Origin: a virus
Length of the DNA stretch: 64,000 nt
Direction: 5' to 3' (one strand)
IMG/VR virus record: IMGVR_UViG_3300009184_000001
Location: 30,441-94,440 of that record
The notes under the pieces are model-generated. The model worked only from the letters and a program-made list of their open reading frames with translations, was not told the DNA's origin and made no database searches. This document shows, piece after piece, positions 6,992 through 41,343 of the stretch. The translations under genes were made by a program, and so were the position numbers. Numbering within the stretch: the stretch's first letter is position 1; every line of letters begins with the position of its first letter.

Positions 6992-7025
6992 TTTGTTTGT
7001 GTTGGGGGGCCCCGAAAGGCCCCCC
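6992..7025 (-). promoter_or_regulatory. GC-rich hairpin plus ACACAAACA element
   Basis: GGGGGGCC (7004-7011) pairs with GGCCCCCC (7018-7025) around a six-base loop. Reading with transcription (minus strand), the hairpin is followed directly by AACACAAACAAA (7003-6992), about 30 bases before the start of the 122-residue gene. There is no U-tract, so a plain terminator is unlikely. The same hairpin-plus-motif arrangement recurs elsewhere in the window. Confidence 0.55.
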
Positions 7026-18721: not shown

Positions 18722-18768
18722 GCCTAATTCCCTTACTATTCAATATAAACAGTATGACAGAAACAGAA

Positions 18769-18796
18769 AGCCCCGCCAGTCTAAACCAGCGGGGCT
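18769..18796 (-). terminator. Intrinsic terminator after NlpC/P60 gene
   Basis: AGCCCCGC (18769-18776) pairs with GCGGGGCT (18789-18796). On the minus strand it is followed by TTCTGTTTC, a weak U-rich tract. It starts six bases after the end of the lipoprotein gene. Confidence 0.6.
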
Positions 18797-18801
18797 ACTG
18801 C

Positions 18802-19341
18802 TTATAGAGTTTTGATTACTCTCACAAACCTTATCTGACTCTTTTTATAGTCTGATAAAGGTTGAACTATCGTAGACTGTGTTCCACGATGTGCATTAAT
18901 CATTTTTCCATTTCCGATGTAAATGGCGGCATGATAGAAGTTAGTGCTGCCATTGTAAGCAAACACTACAATGTCTCCAACTTTAGGGTTAGAAACTCTA
19001 GCTCCAATATGTGCTTGGGCATCTGCCGAGTGTGGTAATACTATACCAAATTGTTTATAAGTCCAGCGTACTAGACCTGAACAGTCCCATCCACGGGGAC
19101 TGGCACCTGAGAATACATAGGATGTACGTCCTACGCGAGTCTTCAGATACTTTACTACATGAGCCATTTGAACAGAATTACGTTTAATCTTTTGTATTTG
19201 GATTAAACCCGTTTTTAATGACTGCTCTTTTACTTGGTGTTGCTGTACTGCCTTTGTGTTTTCAATCTGAGCTATTGCCGCAGAAGCGGAGCAACCAGCG
19301 AGAGTTAAAAGAACGCTGGCTATTATTACGTACTTTTTCAT
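18802..19341 (-). CDS. Secreted NlpC/P60-family lipoprotein
   Basis: The 179-residue protein begins with a lipoprotein signal peptide: MKKYVIIASVLLTLAGC, lipobox LAGC with Cys17. The C-terminal NlpC/P60 domain has the catalytic Cys87 (GWDCSGL), His137 (FYHAAIYIG) and a polar third residue His151 (NAHRG). These enzymes cut gamma-D-Glu-diaminopimelate links in peptidoglycan. The protein would be exported by the host and anchored outside, unlike a classical endolysin. Its own hairpin terminator downstream and a regulatory element upstream suggest separate control. Roles in lysis, host-wall modification or superinfection exclusion are possible. Confidence 0.82.
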   Translation of the reverse strand: MKKYVIIASVLLTLAGCSASAAIAQIENTKAVQQHQVKEQSLKTGLIQIQKIKRNSVQMAHVVKYLKTRVGRTSYVFSGASPRGWDCSGLVRWTYKQFGIVLPHSADAQAHIGARVSNPKVGDIVVFAYNGSTNFYHAAIYIGNGKMINAHRGTQSTIVQPLSDYKKSQIRFVRVIKTL

Positions 19342-19430: not shown

Positions 19431-19447
19431 AGATGTTTGTGTTGGGC
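19431..19447 (-). promoter_or_regulatory. ACACAAACA element upstream of the lipoprotein gene
   Basis: On the minus strand the sequence reads GCCCAACACAAACATCT. It shares CCNRACACAAACA with the other copies in this window and, like the other intergenic copies, reads in the direction of transcription. A weak TATAAC lies downstream of it and may be a -10 box. Confidence 0.5.
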
Positions 19448-22679: not shown

Positions 22680-23048
22680 GCTACTGCTTAATATTAAAAG
22701 AGCTCAACCGTGTTTTTCACCTGGCGATAATATATCCTGCTTGCGTTAGGGTTGTCCCAAAATTACCGTTATCCTAACACCATCATAAATAGTGATGGCA
22801 CACTACTTATGTGAATAAGGTTTCGTGCTACCTATGGCGTGTAATTCCTATTTATAGGCATAACCCTTAGTAATACGGCTAAGGGTTATGCTCATAAAGT
22901 AATCGCTGACTATCTCCCCTTATTGCTACGGCACGGCTTATTCATTAGGGTTATCTCCCCTAATGTGTGAACTGTGCCGTAGTTAGGTGCAGTAAACGCT
23001 ATAACAACCGTTATAGTGAAACCCTTTACGCTTAGGAGCGTGATAGCG
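22680..23048 (+). ncRNA. Structured non-coding region, 370 bases
   Basis: No gene is supported here. Several inverted repeats stand in line: CCATCA/TGATGG (22780-22798), CCTAT/ATAGG (22847-22858), a 13-pair perfect stem GCATAACCCTTAG/CTAAGGGTTATGC (22858-22891), a nested element with CTACGGCAC/GTGCCGTAG outside and CATTAGGG/CCCTAATG inside (about 22925-22982), and CTATAAC/GTTATAG (22999-23016). None is followed by a U-tract. The density suggests a structured untranslated RNA or a protein-binding region; the strand is assumed from neighbouring genes. Confidence 0.5.
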
Positions 23049-23660
23049 ATGAACACTACAACATCGCAAACAGTATTAGTTGCTGACTCAACTGACGTAA
23101 CTGGCAACGATGTGCCAGTATCCCTGTTTGAACGTGCCCTTGGTACGTTCACTGGTGACGGTGTTGGCTCTATCTTCAGGACTATTCCTGAATTAGAGCG
23201 ACTAGTCCTTACTGAAATGGTGGCTCGACTAGAGTCCACTATGGAAGTAAACGGCGTAACATTCACCGTATCAGAAGCGCGTAGTTCCTTTAAGGCACTA
23301 CACGTTCAGGGTGTCAAGACAGGCAAGCGAACCTGTGAGCAACTCCCAACTTGGGCAAAGAAGTCTGATGCCCCAGAGACAGAGTACGCAGAGACCATCA
23401 TAGATAAAGAAATCTATGACATCTTCACAGTTGAGCGTGGCTTCATTGACGTAAAGTCAAACGAAGAGGGTGTCCGTGACTATGTAGGTGTTCCTTGCCT
23501 GCTTAGAGGAGCAGATGCTCGCCTGTACAACGCCATTGACGAGTTCATTGGTGAACTTGGTATGGGCAGAAGCCGTCGTGGCAACAAGGGGTACTGGTCA
23601 GAGTATGACTTGGACGAGTTGGTCGCCGAGATGAAAGCCAGAATAGCTGAAATTAGCTAA
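23049..23660 (+). CDS. Hypothetical protein, 203 aa
   Basis: ATG 23049 with AGGAG ten bases upstream is preferred to an upstream GTG frame. The protein is soluble, acidic and mixed alpha/beta, with segments VSLFERALGTFTGDGVGSIF, LERLVLTEMVARLES and a C-terminal helix LDELVAEMKARI. No motif is recognised. It is flanked on both sides by structured non-coding DNA. Confidence 0.6.
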   Translation: MNTTTSQTVLVADSTDVTGNDVPVSLFERALGTFTGDGVGSIFRTIPELERLVLTEMVARLESTMEVNGVTFTVSEARSSFKALHVQGVKTGKRTCEQLPTWAKKSDAPETEYAETIIDKEIYDIFTVERGFIDVKSNEEGVRDYVGVPCLLRGADARLYNAIDEFIGELGMGRSRRGNKGYWSEYDLDELVAEMKARIAEIS

Positions 23661-23924
23661 TCTGGCTACTGCTCAACACACGGGCAGGCTAAGTGAGTCT
23701 ATCACCAGACTTACGAAGCCTGCCCGTTGCTGTTATCAAGTAAGACGTCGAGCAACGTCTATAAATAATGCAGAAGTTACGCACGCTCTATGCTCCTAAC
23801 TGCTAGGGAAAGTTAGGCGGGAAAGCCAGTGTTATTCCGATAAGGCAGTCAGCCCTAGAGACACTTTAGGTGTAGGTGTGCAAAGCCCCTCTAGGGCACG
23901 CTCATTATAGAAAGGAGCCAAACT
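23661..23924 (+). ncRNA. Structured non-coding region, 260 bases
   Basis: A ten-pair stem CGGGCAGGCT/AGCCTGCCCG (23681-23690 with 23717-23726) contains a second AGTCT/AGACT stem. Further on, CCTAAC/GTTAGG and a nine-pair GCCCTAGAG/CTCTAGGGC (23852-23860 with 23889-23897) enclose ACAC/GTGT. No open frame with a ribosome site fits. It may be an untranslated RNA or the leader of the gene at 23925. Confidence 0.5.
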
Positions 23925-24432: not shown

Positions 24433-24491
24433 GTCTTTCTCATAGAAGCAAGGATAGTATTTGGGTTATCTATCCTCTAAGTCTTCTCTAT

Positions 24492-24532
24492 ATCTCTACA
24501 AATAAGACCCCCGTAGAGATGAATAAAGGGGG
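24492..24532 (+). ncRNA. H-type pseudoknot, copy A
   Basis: Stem 1 is ATCTCTAC/GTAGAGAT (24492-24499 with 24513-24520). Its loop carries AATAAGA and CCCCC (24508-24512), and CCCCC pairs with GGGGG at 24528-24532 after a seven-base linker. The same architecture with two compensated base-pair changes appears 130 bases downstream, which argues that the fold is real. Confidence 0.7.
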
Positions 24533-24547
24533 CAAGTCGTCCTAGTA

Positions 24548-24614
24548 GCGCACTCCAAGTGGCATTCCCCTAGAAATACGCAGGGTGAGTAAGGTTCGAA
24601 TCCTTACAGTGTGT
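24548..24614 (+). ncRNA. tRNA-like minihelix between the two pseudoknots
   Basis: GCGCACT (24548-24554) pairs with AGTGTGT (24608-24614, two G-U pairs) next to a T-arm-like hairpin GTAAGG-TTCGAAT-CCTTAC (24589-24607) with a canonical T loop. Only 34 bases lie between the acceptor-like strand and the T arm, too few for both D and anticodon arms, so this is not a normal tRNA. It may mimic a tRNA acceptor/T domain. Confidence 0.5.
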
Positions 24615-24622
24615 GAAAGGCT

Positions 24623-24675
24623 CTCTCTATATAATAAGTCCCCCATAGAGAGCAGTAAAAGGGGGCAAAGCCCCC
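24623..24675 (+). ncRNA. H-type pseudoknot, copy B, with competing hairpin
   Basis: Stem 1 is CTCTCTAT/ATAGAGAG (24623-24630 with 24645-24652). The loop has AATAAGT and CCCCC (24640-24644), which pairs with GGGGG at 24661-24665. The same GGGGGC can instead pair with GCCCCC (24670-24675), a hairpin with an AAA loop that excludes the pseudoknot. Compared with copy A, the outermost and innermost pairs of stem 1 are both changed and still pair. Confidence 0.7.
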
Positions 24676-24713
24676 TTAGACCCCCGTACAAGGGCGTTCT
24701 AAGGGTAACCAAA

Positions 24714-24784
24714 GGGGCTTGGCTACGACCAAGGCAAGCACAACCGCTGGCGGTAGCTGTCTTCTCTAGAAGTAGTCAAGCCCC
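24714..24784 (+). ncRNA. Long stem domain downstream of pseudoknot B
   Basis: GGGGCTTGGCTAC (24714-24726) pairs with GTAGTCAAGCCCC (24772-24784), 13 pairs with one G-U. Inside are the small stems CCGC/GCGG and TTCT/AGAA. With the two pseudoknots this makes 24433-24811 an RNA-coding rather than a protein-coding stretch. A further small stem, AGGATAG/CTATCCT, is at 24451-24476. Confidence 0.55.
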
Positions 24785-24811
24785 TCAACCTATATGAAAG
24801 GTAGGTAAGCA

Positions 24812-25727: not shown

Positions 25728-25750
25728 CTAGCCAACACAAACAAACTAAG
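25728..25750 (+). promoter_or_regulatory. ACACAAACA element, copy before HTH gene
   Basis: CTAGCCAACACAAACAAACT has the core CCNRACACAAACA shared with the other copies. It lies between the coiled-coil gene and the HTH start preferred here. If the longer HTH frame (from 25691) is used, the element would be inside coding sequence. Confidence 0.45.
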
Positions 25751-26797: not shown

Positions 26798-27205
26798 ATG
26801 GCAGTAACAACAAGTATCCGAGTAGATACACAAGCAGCAAAGGCTAAACTTCAGGCTCGTCTTGACGACCACAAGAAAGCATTTGCTGCATACAATAAGG
26901 CAGTTGAAAAGTATGAAACTGACCTTGATAAATGGGCACTAAAGGTAATTAAGCACAAGGATGCTATTAAAGTATCTGTAGGTCACGGTAACTCAGTAGG
27001 TGTAGAAGTTCCTCAGTCTATGCGAGACAGTAAGCCAGTTCATCCAAGGGAGATTGACTTTGCTGGTATGTTGAACTACCGTAGTTCATACAACTCACCA
27101 AGTGATGTAGAGGCCATTGAGAATGCCTTAGGTATTCTTGGGATTGCTATTGATGCAACAATTAACGTCAATGCAATCAAAGGTGTTGGCTCATTCCTTA
27201 AGTAG
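26798..27205 (+). CDS. Hypothetical protein, 135 aa
   Basis: The N-terminal two-thirds is a long Lys/Ala/Asp-rich helix (AKAKLQARLDDHKKAFAAYN); the C-terminal part carries VGVEVPQSMRDSKPVHPREI and a short helical end. GAAAGG precedes the ATG. It is directly upstream of the large structured RNA and may be co-transcribed with it. Function unknown. Confidence 0.6.
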   Translation: MAVTTSIRVDTQAAKAKLQARLDDHKKAFAAYNKAVEKYETDLDKWALKVIKHKDAIKVSVGHGNSVGVEVPQSMRDSKPVHPREIDFAGMLNYRSSYNSPSDVEAIENALGILGIAIDATINVNAIKGVGSFLK

Positions 27206-27220
27206 TATGTAAGGAAATGG

Positions 27221-27703
27221 CACTAGGAGCAGAGATGTTCCTAGTGTCTAACCTTTACATAAAGTAAAGGACGTAGTGCCTGTCTAGAACCAAGAGCTAA
27301 GATGCAATAGGACAAAAAGCATCCACTAGCCCCATCAAAGTAAGGGAAATTCCCCCAAACGTGGACAGAGTCGATTAGGTTGTATGAGCATTTGTAACTC
27401 TAGAACTAGACAGGCACTACAAATTAAGAATTCTATGTAGCAATACATAGCATCTGGAGTGGGCGGCCAGTAAAAAGAAAACCCTATGTCGGTGCAAGAC
27501 CGAACTTCTATGCTGTGGCGAACATAGTCGGAGTTGCTGTGGTTTTAATAGTAGTTGAGTTAGCGATTGCTGAGTGCGTTACTACTGGTCATTGTCCACT
27601 TAGTTTGACTAAGAATAATACGTAAGACGAACTCACATCAAGCCCCCTGTTACACTGTCACACAATGAGTTTATATAACTAGTGCTGATGTAGCAGGGGG
27701 CTT
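27221..27703 (+). ncRNA. Large ornate structured RNA, about 480 nt
   Basis: No protein gene fits, but the stretch is packed with perfect stems: CACTAGGA/TCCTAGTG (27221-27246), CCTTTAC/GTAAAGG (27252-27270), a 15-pair long-range helix 27273-27287 with 27406-27420, CTATGTA-GCAA-TACATAG with a GNRA loop (27433-27450), long-range GGCCAGTA/TACTGGTC (27465-27472 with 27583-27590), TCGGT/ACCGA (27489-27503), CTATG/CATAG (27508-27527), CTTAGT/ACTAAG (27599-27613), and a 15-pair closing stem with one G-U, 27640-27654 with 27689-27703. Size and complexity recall the phage-associated ornate RNAs GOLLD and ROOL, but identity with either is not shown. Confidence 0.75.
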
Positions 27704-27719
27704 GCTTATAACACAGAGC

Positions 27720-27795
27720 GGCTAGCCCGACACAAACACCTAGCCCATAAGTTTCCGTAGCAATACGGTTTGCTATTAGCAACCCCGCTAATAGC
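27720..27795 (+). promoter_or_regulatory. ACACAAACA element and two hairpins before 27824 gene
   Basis: GGCTAG (27720-27725) pairs with CTAGCC (27739-27744), presenting CCCGACACAAACAC in the loop. It is followed by CCGTA-GCAA-TACGG (27755-27768) and a nine-pair GCTATTAGC/GCTAATAGC (27772-27795). They fill the leader of the next gene and may be an extension of the structured RNA or an independent control region. Confidence 0.5.
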
Positions 27796-27823
27796 CAAAT
27801 ATATATAGAAAGGTTGATGTCCT

Positions 27824-28198
27824 ATGGATAACAACGTGCCTAAGATTACTCAAGATAATCTACCTAATGATAGCTATTTCATTGTAAGAATGTGTGTTCA
27901 TTGTCAGGATATTACAGACACTATAGCAGTACCATTTCATATGCCATTCCCTAGTGTACGAATTGCTAAAGCAATGATGCTAGGAATGATTGAAGATGCT
28001 ATAGATGACGACAAGTCAGTGAACTTTACTGATGGAGTTGTACACATGACAGATGATGAGGGTGAGCAACACAAGTACATTCAGGCTATCATCCACATCA
28101 CCAACAAGATTGTTTGGCGTCCAGGTGACGACGAGCAGATAGACTCTAAGTTCAACGACATCATTGGTGCTCTTGACTTAGATACCCCAACCGAATAG
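27824..28198 (+). CDS. Hypothetical protein upstream of AAA+ ATPase, 124 aa
   Basis: The protein is acidic with MCVHCQDITDTIAVPFHM near residue 23 and a C-terminal DQIIH-like strand region (YIQAIIHITNKIVW). It lies 11 bases before the ATPase and probably shares its transcript, so it may be a partner. No family recognised. Confidence 0.6.
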   Translation: MDNNVPKITQDNLPNDSYFIVRMCVHCQDITDTIAVPFHMPFPSVRIAKAMMLGMIEDAIDDDKSVNFTDGVVHMTDDEGEQHKYIQAIIHITNKIVWRPGDDEQIDSKFNDIIGALDLDTPTE

Positions 28199-28209
28199 AA
28201 AGGCAACAA

Positions 28210-29544
28210 ATGTACGCAGCTATGATGAAGTGCCAAACTTCTACAGGAGATGTACGCACAGTCGCAGTAGTTCCTACTACTGATGATGTACGTATCTTCT
28301 CACGATTAGGAGAGGGGCGTGGTCGTGCTGGTGCTTGGCTAGAAGGAGATGTACTCATTGAACAAAATGAGTTACTTATTGGAAGCCCAGTATCACTCAA
28401 GACTACTCCGTCAGAAGACAGAGTAATCAACTCTACTATCACACCGTCAATGTTCTTGGTGAAGTTAGGCAAGAAATTGCCTGAAAGCAGCACACCTAGT
28501 TCAACGTCAGCACTAGAAGAGTTTCAATCTCTACTAGAGCAGGCATTGAATGACCCAAGTTCATTGTCTGTATATGAGCAAGCAATTGTTCATACACAAG
28601 CCACACCACAGCCAGTGGTGCAACAGCAGGTAGCAAGCCCGTTGCCTGTTCAACCCGAGATGTCTAAGGAGACACCTATGGAATACTCACAACCCCTACC
28701 AGCATCAAGCAACAGCCACAGTGTATTGCTTGTGCCAGAAATCAAGCCACACTTCACTAGGACATTCGATGAACTAGACGAAGTAACTATCCTTGATTCA
28801 GCACGAGCAAGAAAAAAGACTGTGCTTATCACAGGTCCCGCTGGTACAGGCAAGACTAGTTGTGCTTACAACTATGCCGCAGTCAATCATCTACCATTCG
28901 TAGTTATTGAAGGCACACGACAGATTGACGAGACCAAGGTTCATGGTCGCTTCATTCCTACTGGTGTTGGTAACAGCACTGCTTGGAAGTACAGTCAGTT
29001 CGTTACTGCTATCCAGCAACCGTCAGTAATCCTTATCAACGAGTTGAGTCGTATGCCTGCCAAAGCAGCCGACTTGTTCCTTCGTGTACTCAATGAGCGA
29101 GAACTAATCATTGACCAACTCAATGAGGTTATCAAGGTGCACCCTGAGTGTCTGTTCATTGTAGACCAGAACACAGGTACTGGCTATGCTGTTACAGCAC
29201 AAGACAAGGCATTGCTTGACAGAATGCAACCTAAGATGGAGTTTGATTACGACATCAAGCTTGAGTCTAAGTTCATCAAGTCCGAGTCATTGCTGTTGTT
29301 TGCACAGTCTATTCGTGAAGCAGCGACTATGACTGACCAGTTCACAACACCTATGTCGCCTCGTATCCTGCTTGACTTCGTAGACAATGCTAAGCACCTC
29401 AACTTAGCATTCGCTGTGCGTTCATTGCTCAACAACTTCCCTAAGGATGATGGTGAGCGTGAAGCAGTCAAGATGACTCTAGACTCCAACATTGACGCTA
29501 TTGCGTCAGAGTTGGGTGTAGAACTAGGCAGTTACTCAGCCTAG
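28210..29544 (+). CDS. MoxR/CobS-type AAA+ ATPase
   Basis: The 444-residue protein has an N-terminal domain of unknown type (1-120), a Gln/Pro-rich linker, then an AAA+ module: Walker A GPAGTGKT (209-216), Walker B-like SVILINELSRM, sensor region FIVDQNTGTGY and arginine-finger area QDKALLDRMQPKMEFDY. The ELSRMPAKAADLFLRVLNER stretch is typical of MoxR/CbbQ/CobS ATPases, which work with VWA-domain partners as chelatases or chaperones. The next gene encodes such a partner, separated by 107 bases with a regulatory element. Confidence 0.85.
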   Translation: MYAAMMKCQTSTGDVRTVAVVPTTDDVRIFSRLGEGRGRAGAWLEGDVLIEQNELLIGSPVSLKTTPSEDRVINSTITPSMFLVKLGKKLPESSTPSSTSALEEFQSLLEQALNDPSSLSVYEQAIVHTQATPQPVVQQQVASPLPVQPEMSKETPMEYSQPLPASSNSHSVLLVPEIKPHFTRTFDELDEVTILDSARARKKTVLITGPAGTGKTSCAYNYAAVNHLPFVVIEGTRQIDETKVHGRFIPTGVGNSTAWKYSQFVTAIQQPSVILINELSRMPAKAADLFLRVLNERELIIDQLNEVIKVHPECLFIVDQNTGTGYAVTAQDKALLDRMQPKMEFDYDIKLESKFIKSESLLLFAQSIREAATMTDQFTTPMSPRILLDFVDNAKHLNLAFAVRSLLNNFPKDDGEREAVKMTLDSNIDAIASELGVELGSYSA

Positions 29545-29559
29545 TCCCTCAAGTCTTAT

Positions 29560-29620
29560 GTAGCACAGTCGCGTTGGCTAGTCGGCTAGCCGACACAAAC
29601 ATCTAGCGTGACTGTGCTAC
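29560..29620 (+). promoter_or_regulatory. Inverted repeats and ACACAAACA element before VWA gene
   Basis: GTAGCACAGTC (29560-29570) pairs perfectly with GACTGTGCTAC (29610-29620). Inside lie the 14-base palindrome GTCGGCTAGCCGAC (29581-29594) and GCCGACACAAACATCTAGC. The gap separates the ATPase from the VWA gene and could be a processing site, attenuator or operator. Confidence 0.6.
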
Positions 29621-29651
29621 CTAAGCACCAATACAATACAAGGAGAAATAT

Positions 29652-31589
29652 ATGCAAATAATACCTAACGGTTACAATCCCCTTGAACTTGACAGTGATA
29701 AATATATTGCTGTCAATACCGACGTTGAAGACCTGAATGCTGAGCGTGCTGAGCGTATGACGAGAGTCATATCTAAGTTCTCTAGTGCGATTACATCCCG
29801 GGTTGTCAATGTGTCTGTAGTAAATGACAAGCAGGTCAACCTGCCTAGTGCAGACGCTACAGCGTGGTCAGATGCTGAGAACATCTGGTTCAATATAGAC
29901 AAGTTAGGTGACCTCAATGACCCCGACACTGCGTTAGCAATCAAGGGTGTCAGTCTTCACGAATTAGGTCACATACAACTAACACCTCGTGCTGGTAGCA
30001 ATCTAGTCAAGTGGGTTCGCGGTAACAACTTTGAGCGTGCATTCAATATACTCGAAGACCAACGCACCGAGTTGTTCTTGTCTACTAAGTACAGTAACGT
30101 AAAGCACTGGTTCACAGCAGCAGTTACTAAGTATCTTATAGACAATCCACAAGCAATACCTAATGCGTTCCCACTCATACACGGTAGGTCATTCTTACCA
30201 GCAGAGTTGCGTCAAGCAATTCGTAGTGCGTATGCCAATCAATCTATAGCCAATCAGTTGGCTAGTATTATTGACAGGTACACAGTACTCAATCTATCTG
30301 ACAGTGTTAGTATCCCTATAGCACAGCAGTTGATTAGAGAGTTCCACGAGTTGATTGCTTCAACTGGTCAAGGTTGGTCAGATGTACCTAACCCAGACAA
30401 GAATGGCAGTGGCGCAATTATGAAGTCATCAGAGAAGTCTAAGCCTATGAACAAAGCAGGTCAAGACCGTATCATTGACAAGATAAACAAAGAGCGTGGC
30501 AATCAGCAGTCTAATCCTAGTGGTGACGAAGAGGGTGAAGAGTATGAGCCTAGTGACGAGCCTAGTGATGAGCCCGGTGAAGATGGTGAGGGTGAGTCTA
30601 GTGACGGTGATGCACCTAAGCAACATCAACTTCCACAGTCTGACGGTAACCCCGGCAAGCAAGCAGGCGAAGGTGTTGAAGGTGCTACTAACAACGTTAC
30701 ACAGGTAGCACAGAAACATCTCAACAATGCTAAGCAGATATTGCGTGAAGACCTACAAGATATGGTAGCCCAGTTCAATGGTGAGTCTTCACTTACTAGC
30801 AAGCATCAGAAAACACCAGAGCGTAGTTATTATGAGCGTGAGGTAGCTGTGCCTGTAGACGTTGTTACTCAAGTCAAGTCATTCGTTAATCAACTAGAAC
30901 TGATACGTGCTGAGCATGACCCAGGTTGGAAGCGTAGAGTTAGTGCTGGTAAGTTAAATGTTTATCGTTATATGACTGGTGCTGAGCCTGACGAAGTGTT
31001 TGACCTATGGGATGAGGGTCGTGAAGATGTTGTAGACATTGAGACCGTTGTCCTGCTAGATAACTCAGGCTCTATGGGTTGGACTATTGACTCAGCACAC
31101 GATTCTATGTGGGCTATCAAGCGTGCTATGGATAAGATAGGTGCTTCTACTACAGTAGTTACTTTTGCTGATGATGCTCGTATATTGTACGGTGCCAATC
31201 AAAAAGCCAAGGTTACTAAAGCGTATGTAGGCGTAGCAGGTGGTACTAATCCTAAGCAAGCCGTTGACTATGCTAAGTACATTCTTGCTAACAGTGAGCG
31301 TGCTATCAAGATACTTATCGTCATCACTGATGGTGAATGGTGGAACTCAGAAGAGCAAGATAGAATCATAAGTCAGATGCGTAAGGCTGGTGTTATTACA
31401 GCCCTAGGTTATATTGACCCTCGTGGTGCTTGGTCTGAAGAAAACAGGCAGAGGTTTGCTGATGATAGAAAACAGCAGGTCAATGGTCACGGTGCTGAGA
31501 TTGTTGTAGCGTTAGACAACGGCAACTCACTGCTAAATCTTGCCAAAGCATTGGTCAAGGCTGGCATCAAACGTAACTTATCTAAGTAA
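29652..31589 (+). CDS. Zincin-VWA protein, CobT-like partner of the ATPase
   Basis: The 645-residue protein has an N-terminal metallopeptidase-like part with HELGH (103-107) and a downstream acidic helix NILEDQRTELF that may give a third ligand. A Glu/Asp/Pro/Ser-rich linker (about 285-350) follows, then a C-terminal VWA domain with a complete MIDAS: DNSGSMG (Asp470), GGTNPKQA and VITDGEW. This layout is like CobT/ViaA-type partners of MoxR-family ATPases. Together the pair could remodel or degrade a host protein complex or insert a metal; which is unknown. AAGGAG precedes the ATG. Confidence 0.8.
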   Translation: MQIIPNGYNPLELDSDKYIAVNTDVEDLNAERAERMTRVISKFSSAITSRVVNVSVVNDKQVNLPSADATAWSDAENIWFNIDKLGDLNDPDTALAIKGVSLHELGHIQLTPRAGSNLVKWVRGNNFERAFNILEDQRTELFLSTKYSNVKHWFTAAVTKYLIDNPQAIPNAFPLIHGRSFLPAELRQAIRSAYANQSIANQLASIIDRYTVLNLSDSVSIPIAQQLIREFHELIASTGQGWSDVPNPDKNGSGAIMKSSEKSKPMNKAGQDRIIDKINKERGNQQSNPSGDEEGEEYEPSDEPSDEPGEDGEGESSDGDAPKQHQLPQSDGNPGKQAGEGVEGATNNVTQVAQKHLNNAKQILREDLQDMVAQFNGESSLTSKHQKTPERSYYEREVAVPVDVVTQVKSFVNQLELIRAEHDPGWKRRVSAGKLNVYRYMTGAEPDEVFDLWDEGREDVVDIETVVLLDNSGSMGWTIDSAHDSMWAIKRAMDKIGASTTVVTFADDARILYGANQKAKVTKAYVGVAGGTNPKQAVDYAKYILANSERAIKILIVITDGEWWNSEEQDRIISQMRKAGVITALGYIDPRGAWSEENRQRFADDRKQQVNGHGAEIVVALDNGNSLLNLAKALVKAGIKRNLSK

Positions 31590-39873: not shown

Positions 39874-41343
39874 CTACTCGAGGGCATCCCGTATAATGTG
39901 TGTGGTTTGGTCTTCAGATAATGGCTTATCTAGGTTGCGTAATACGGATGCGCGGTCACCAAAAATACGTGATAATGCGCCTCCCTCTGTCTGACGACTT
40001 GCGGTAATCTGGATGAACTCTTTATTAGTTTCCAGCTCTTTCATACTACTTACTAATTTGAATAAACGGTCTATCTCCTGGGATACATTTGGGTCTGCGT
40101 ATCCACCGTTCATTTCCTCTGCGAACCGCATGAATGCTACTCTTTGCCCCTGCATTTCAACGATTGCGGTTAATAATGACTTCAATTGTTCTTTGGTTTT
40201 TACCTCTACTGGCAGGTTGAACGCACATGTGTTTGCTGGCTTAAATGCTGGGCAATTGGCGGCTACGAAACAGGTATCACACTGACGTAAACTGCTGTTA
40301 TTCGACTGTACAACTGGTACTTCTCTTAATACTTCATGGCCGTCTATATTGTCTACAATGGACTTCATTTGGTACCCAAAAACAGGCATTGGAACTACCT
40401 CATTTGGGTCTCTTTGCACTACTTCTGTGCGTTCAAGTTTCCGCTCTTCACCATCACTGTTATTAGATGACCCCACCCCTAATTCCATCAAACCACTGTA
40501 TAGGGTATCATCACTGTTATCAGATACTATACGCTTTTTATTGTTATCCATTGTCTTCTCTAACTGTAAATACGACCAGATTGCAACTTTTGTTGCTTCT
40601 AGTGTGTCATCTTCTACGAACTTTTTGAAATCTAACCCAGCTTTTTCTACAACTGATTTGTACCTTAAACGGGCCTGTGCCTTCATATTTTTAGGATAAC
40701 GTATTAGTTTAGTATTATCCCATATAATGGTCTCACCGCGTCTCATAGGGCTTATCCAGGCCAATGTAGAGGCATGGTCAAACGGTATTTGACGTAGGTT
40801 ATCTGGTTTTGCTGTTGCTAACGCCATAAACTGTGTTGAACTGGTTAGTTTTATGGAACGAACAATCGCTGCCAGGGATGTTAACGACTCTACTGCATCT
40901 CCGGGAATTGCAATATTAGCGTACTCTGTACCCCAACGCTTTAATAAATTTTGTCCATAAATCTCGTGCCAAACAACCCACATCTTTGGGTCATTTTCAA
41001 ATGCATCTCGCTGTTCTAGAATCCAATTAAATCCCATAACCTGTGAATCAAATTCAATCCAACCTTCAATACGGTCGTAATTCATTGCTATAAACTCTTC
41101 GTAATCTGCGGCGTATTCTTCTAACTCCATCTTGGACAGGTTAGCTTTGTCTGCTTGAACTGCTCCTGAATCTACCCATACTTTCATATTAGGTAGGAAA
41201 TGTTCACCAATCAAATATGGCTTAGTCTTTGGCAGCCCACGCTTTTTCAACCCCCAGTAATTTAGGATGACGTGTTCTGCCCCGCTGCGTTCCAACAATG
41301 TACGATTACTTGGAATCTCTACCCCGCCAAATATTATCTTCAT
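39874..41343 (-). CDS. DpdA/TGT-like TIM-barrel protein with Cys-rich C-terminal part
   Basis: The N-terminal 240 residues look like phage DpdA-type tRNA-guanine-transglycosylase homologs: MKVWVDSGAVQAD, RIEGWIEFDSQVMGFNW, WVVWHEIYGQNLLKRWGTEY, ANIAIPGDAVESL and ATAKPDNLRQIPFDHASTLA. DpdA puts 7-deazaguanines into DNA. After about residue 300 comes an acidic linker, then CDTCFVAANCPAFKPANTC, a metal-binding-like cluster, and a helical end. No preQ0 synthesis genes are in the window, so the base would have to come from the host or from genes elsewhere. Assignment is by motif pattern only. Confidence 0.5.
   Translation of the reverse strand: MKIIFGGVEIPSNRTLLERSGAEHVILNYWGLKKRGLPKTKPYLIGEHFLPNMKVWVDSGAVQADKANLSKMELEEYAADYEEFIAMNYDRIEGWIEFDSQVMGFNWILEQRDAFENDPKMWVVWHEIYGQNLLKRWGTEYANIAIPGDAVESLTSLAAIVRSIKLTSSTQFMALATAKPDNLRQIPFDHASTLAWISPMRRGETIIWDNTKLIRYPKNMKAQARLRYKSVVEKAGLDFKKFVEDDTLEATKVAIWSYLQLEKTMDNNKKRIVSDNSDDTLYSGLMELGVGSSNNSDGEERKLERTEVVQRDPNEVVPMPVFGYQMKSIVDNIDGHEVLREVPVVQSNNSSLRQCDTCFVAANCPAFKPANTCAFNLPVEVKTKEQLKSLLTAIVEMQGQRVAFMRFAEEMNGGYADPNVSQEIDRLFKLVSSMKELETNKEFIQITASRQTEGGALSRIFGDRASVLRNLDKPLSEDQTTHIIRDALE

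Follow-up and report, generated by a model that had tools for sequence, protein, structure and literature searches.

The 618-nt gap at 27206-27823 of the window, the 64,000-nt stretch of viral DNA analyzed here, almost certainly encodes a structured RNA. Five related phages share this RNA, and compensatory changes keep its stems. Phages have so far yielded few large structured RNAs. We tentatively interpret this one as a new class, about 540 nt long with two folded domains, whose folded body within a polycistronic transcript may work like GOLLD and ROOL. An alternative in terms of separate cis-acting elements explains the data about equally well, and we prefer the first reading narrowly. A single compact RNA that functions as GOLLD and ROOL do is only a possibility, since genes separate the two domains in some relatives and the first domain is replaced in another. 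A further class, unrelated to these and backed by covariation, with five natural variants and room for protein genes at its domain joint, would offer a new test of whether RNA scaffolds arise repeatedly in phages or whether such RNAs are just very large leaders.

The window derives from a 94,440-bp virus record, and the RNA occupies a single intergenic gap on the plus strand, between two plus-strand genes (Table 1). No protein gene fits the gap, as the first-pass annotation had stated; its longest ORF encodes 49 aa, and the longest on the plus strand 36 aa. Among the window's large proteins are matches to phage families for packaging, capsid and replication. The virus is most likely an actinobacteriophage, because, for both its helicase and its CobS-like ATPase, the named relatives that match best belong to phages of Streptomyces, Brevibacterium and Gordonia. 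The ATPase gene is followed by that for a VWA protein (28210-31589), a pair also present in Gordonia phage GMA6.

The gap folds at -213.9 kcal/mol, against -154.6 +/- 5.7 kcal/mol in shuffled sequences (z -10.5), in line with the earlier suggestion of an ornate structured RNA. That suggestion placed the RNA at 27221-27703. The conserved element does cover that stretch, but it starts at 27206, directly behind the upstream stop codon, where an outer stem encloses the first hairpin; its 3' end lies near 27745. The architecture is in two parts, a 5' domain A (27206-27420) and a 3' domain B (27427-27745). The z-score of domain A is -9.6 for the window, against about -5 for relatives. The 3' arm has z -5.3, with values of -5 to -6 for the P13-P15 arm across the window, L003 and L012. 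The middle of domain B (27427-27635, mid-B) is near zero, with z just -1.6 in the window. Support for mid-B comes from covariation and one long conserved segment, TATCTGGTGTGGCTAGGCCAGTCAATCAAAGCC, rather than from folding energy; the segment is present in L006, L010 and L012, nearly identical in L003 and altered in the window.

Table 1. Elements of the RNA and neighboring genes (window coordinates).
Feature	Position	Strand	Observation
Upstream gene, no assigned function	26798-27205	+	stop codon abuts P1
P1	27206-27214/27253-27261	+	outer stem enclosing P2; 8 counted pairs kept in 4 sequences
P2, 13-pair hairpin, GNRA loop (GAGA; GAAA in L006)	27219-27231/27236-27248	+	13 pairs kept in 4 sequences
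P1alt, alternative hairpin	27252-27258/27264-27270	+	7 pairs possible in 4/4 sequences; CCUUUAC common to P1
P3, 15-pair closing helix of domain A	27273-27287/27406-27420	+	paired in all 4 A-bearing sequences
P4	27293-27296/27398-27401	+	paired in every A-bearing sequence; invariant internal loop AACCA/AGAA
Hypervariable core of domain A	27297-27397	+	40-48% identity to relatives
Candidate A-B tertiary pairing	27391-27395/27518-27522	+	UUUGU/GCGAA; CCGGU/GCUGG in relatives; 3 covarying pairs
A/B junction	27421-27430	+	insertion site of protein genes in L006 and L010
P6, GCAA tetraloop hairpin, start of domain B	27433-27450	+	2 pairs double-changed in L012
P7, GGG/CCC (GGC/GCC in relatives), around GGCCAGU segment	27461-27484	+	alignment reading
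P8, 5-pair hairpin	27489-27503	+	4/5 pairs double-changed; 100% paired in 5 sequences
P9, 5-pair hairpin, 10-nt loop with UGGC	27508-27527	+	4 pairs double-changed
P11, 6-pair hairpin stem	27550-27586 (27550-27555/27581-27586)	+	similar stem in 4 sequences, register slips; weak
P12, 6-pair hairpin	27599-27613	+	3 pairs double-changed
P13, long GC-rich arm with apical stems	27639-27704	+	invariant in 4 sequences
P15, hairpin, loop CCCGACACAAACAC	27720-27745	+	loop nearly fixed, stem varies
P16 (GCAA hairpin) and P17, leader hairpins 5' of next gene	27755-27795	+	covarying pairs
Downstream small gene	27824-28198	+	homolog also 3' of RNA in relatives
CobS-like AAA ATPase	28210-29544	+	phrog_249, AAA_5
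VWA-domain protein, adjoins ATPase	29652-31589	+	pair also in Gordonia phage GMA6

The first-pass annotation had called for homologs and a covariation check. IMG/VR (2.9 million viral contigs) was searched with DNA patterns and protein queries, yielding four diverged relatives whose changes preserve the stems. A search with the ATPase protein recovered L003, which shares about 71% identity with the window across the intergenic region; DNA patterns and additional protein searches added L006, L010 and L012, and a near-identical second contig, L002, was found as well. L008 matched a DNA pattern and was dropped, as it had no further similarity in blastn or to the domain A model. The RNA is thus known from five related phage genomes only, in all of which it lies directly 5' of homologs of the same small gene and ATPase. 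Blastn against INPHARED phages returned no match, protein and pattern searches of GTDB genome contigs returned nothing, and domain A occurs nowhere else within the five phage records. A related ATPase gene also occurs in Brevibacterium phage Cantare and Gordonia phage GMA6, with no long intergenic RNA in front of it. More distant homologs may have been missed, because the scans require short exact matches.

Domain A is carried by four of the five sequences, L012 being the exception. Its closing helix had been predicted from the window, and it proves exact there and is retained by every carrier. Covariation in the domain comprises 5 pairs and 8 double-sided cells with 100% pairing; when partners were slid by 1-3 columns, pairing fell to 28-43% with zero double changes. 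P1 and P2 together contain 4 pairs with both sides changed. The outer frame is 85-90% identical in the same relatives whose core has diverged as listed in Table 1. Predicted folds of the relatives take either P1 or P1alt, and the two stems could form a two-state switch.

Over the counted structure of domain B, covariation comprises 16 pairs and 21 double-sided cells, a level reached by 0/500 shuffles; the covarying hairpins are P6, P8, P9 and P12. The GCAA tetraloop hairpin noticed in the window is P6. Its stem covaries in L012 with the GCAA loop kept, and the loop reads GTAG in L003 and L006. A closing stem had also been recognized at 27640-27703 and is present as P13. Its 10 outer pairs are sequence-invariant in four sequences, and an unrelated 18-pair stem occupies its place in L012; a U tract is absent downstream. 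P15 stem variants, read directly, include GGCUAG/CUAGCC, UGGCGAG/UUUGCCA and AGCCUA/UAGGCU, among others. The P11-P15 stems of L012 were read by hand, as MAFFT misaligned this sequence there. The long-range GGCCAGTA/TACTGGTC helix of the first-pass annotation (27465-27472 with 27583-27590) can form in the window, where it competes with the local P11 hairpin, but it is absent from L003, L006, L010 and L012. We rejected it for this lack of conservation.

An unguided search for helices returned 6 with at least 2 covarying pairs and none in the reversed control, and its top helices are the same hairpins already assigned. The covariation counts reflect few independent events, coming from 4-5 sequences of which L003 and L006 are nearly identical over much of their length, inner A and B included; the most distant contrasts are provided by L012 and the window. 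A candidate loop contact between A and B (Table 1) has a chance probability of about 0.007 in single-column shuffles and 0.14 in 3-column block shuffles, and effectively represents one evolutionary contrast. A contact between GCCA in the P7 loop and UGGC in the P9 loop was also weighed; it is invariant in four sequences and mutually exclusive with the A-B pairing.

The joint between domains A and B accepts protein genes. In L006 two small ORFs, and in L010 one different small ORF, lie between the domains; the inserted ORFs of both phages begin with the same ACACATTAACAAAGGAGAAACAAATG and have an AAAGGAG ribosome-binding site. In L012 the order is the two L006 genes, about 300 nt of different and mildly structured sequence (z -2.8) in place of A, and then B. 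These same two small genes lie at L006:10145-10797, between A and B, and at L012:3348-3892, upstream of B.

In the reading we prefer, the RNA would be transcribed as part of the plus-strand operon, since it begins at the preceding stop codon and no promoter stands out: a promoter scan gave nothing above chance expectation. Each domain would fold on its own before the two dock by way of loop contacts, and the folded body would itself be the product, acting in trans or as a scaffold by analogy with GOLLD and ROOL, which form homo-oligomeric RNA cages and likewise have variable linkers. The size, the folding excess, covariation in both domains, the candidate A-B pairing and the lack of an Rfam match all favor this reading. 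So does the persistence of domain A in the window and L003: neither has a cargo gene at the joint, yet some 620 noncoding bases survive in a compact phage. Weighing against it, domain B occurs in L012 with another sequence for A, and the genes between the domains in L006 and L010 suggest separable elements. The small downstream gene and the ATPase gene invariably follow the RNA, the arrangement expected of a cis element; mid-B shows little thermodynamic excess; and the sample is five genomes, two of them near-identical in their inner parts.

A comparably plausible account splits the intergenic region into at least two separate cis-acting elements. Domain A would then serve the slot behind it, either as a leader or as an mRNA-end element and possibly through the P1/P1alt switch, and B with P13-P17 would be a leader of the downstream gene and AAA/VWA operon, serving processing, antitermination or translation. 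Cargo genes starting about 25 nt behind domain A with AAAGGAG sites (L006, L010), the constant synteny with the ATPase operon, the mutually exclusive P1 and P1alt stems and the replaceable domain A fit this account, as does the P15 loop motif CCRACACAAACA, which also precedes the ribosome-binding sites of other genes in these phages. However, a phage leader of 540 nt would be large, the window and L003 conserve A with no gene directly behind it, and the candidate A-B pairing would be unexpected.

Between L003 and L010, identity is 0.70 in the A core and 0.69 in mid-B, compared with 0.84 at fourfold sites of the ATPase and 0.96 in the frame. Recombination between phages is the plain explanation for this divergence, and diversifying selection is possible. 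A modular phage RNA scaffold seems rather unlikely, though conceivable; its joint would be a protein-gene slot in which a translated cargo gene is flanked by folded RNA, and phages would trade its inner parts, as might suit a device for counter-defence or packaging. Less probable still is a decoy or counter-defence RNA, in which a rapidly evolving core, held in an unchanging frame, would titrate or inhibit a host factor. The excess divergence over fourfold sites and the swapping of modules between phages would suit such a decoy, but phage mosaicism alone yields the same pattern.

A DNA inverted repeat or decayed gene with no functional RNA is very improbable: the antisense strand of domain A folds well too (z -7.3), as with any inverted repeat, but the stems covary, which contradicts this reading, and double-sided changes, plus-strand G-U pairs, conserved loops and the absence of a decayed ORF all speak against it.

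Cmscan with all 4227 Rfam 15 models, as the first-pass annotation had advised, found only a tRNA in the window, and no Rfam 15 family, including group I/II introns, riboswitches, HEARO, OLE and tmRNA, matched at gathering score. At E up to 10 the only match in the stretch was mir-263, below gathering score, which we regard as chance hairpin similarity. Up to E = 10, the GOLLD model (RF02032) matched neither the window stretch nor the L003 stretch nor any of the five phage records. The ROOL model (RF03087) matched neither the stretch, up to the same E, nor the five records, the latter in a scan whose control genomes went unmatched too; the membership of either class raised earlier was thus not borne out. 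In GOLLD the 5' and 3' regions are separate domains and the linker can hold tRNAs (PMC12286853). The present RNA resembles GOLLD as a large phage RNA with 5' and 3' domains diverging at different rates, a candidate loop contact and a joint that takes inserts, which are tRNAs in GOLLD and protein genes here (PMC12286853). In contrast, it is shorter, has no sequence or structure match and adjoins no tRNA array, a location usual though not universal for GOLLD; the only tRNA called in the window lies 7 kb away on the opposite strand. ROOL is similarly phage-borne, ornate and of similar length, but again its model does not match. We therefore read the two domains and insert-taking joint as likeness, not membership. 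As a kind, the RNA is a large structured phage RNA, with covariation-backed extended structure and no coding capacity. A diverged GOLLD or ROOL is scarcely credible, as its size, complexity, two domains, insert-taking joint and phage setting (PMC12286853) are outweighed by the unmatched models and missing tRNA array.

The 12-mer CCRACACAAACA occurs in 7 copies in the window against 0.05 expected, at 6994-7005 and 19434-19445 on the minus strand and at 25732, 27727, 29590, 32601 and 38766. Several copies directly follow a strong hairpin and precede a ribosome-binding site, and the motif recurs in related phages; it is possibly a phage-wide start-associated or processing element. Cluster K mycobacteriophages have start-associated sequences with extended inverted repeats (PMC3203893), likewise a repeated motif near gene starts and often behind an inverted repeat. 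As far as tested the two are not the same, and CCRACACAAACA also forms the P15 loop in a much larger RNA.

Elsewhere in the window, a Queuine tRNA-ribosyltransferase-like protein (phrog_887) at 39877-41343 on the minus strand points to possible 7-deazaguanine modification of the phage DNA. A tRNA-like sequence at 24546-24615 has a perfect T arm (GTAAGGTTCGAATCCTTAC, 24589-24607) and is called a tRNA by neither ARAGORN nor Rfam. Further strong folding excess occurs at 22680-22900, 23660-23920, 24440-24800 and, on the minus strand, 18751-19000; the first three of these stretches adjoin the gene array that bears the RNA.
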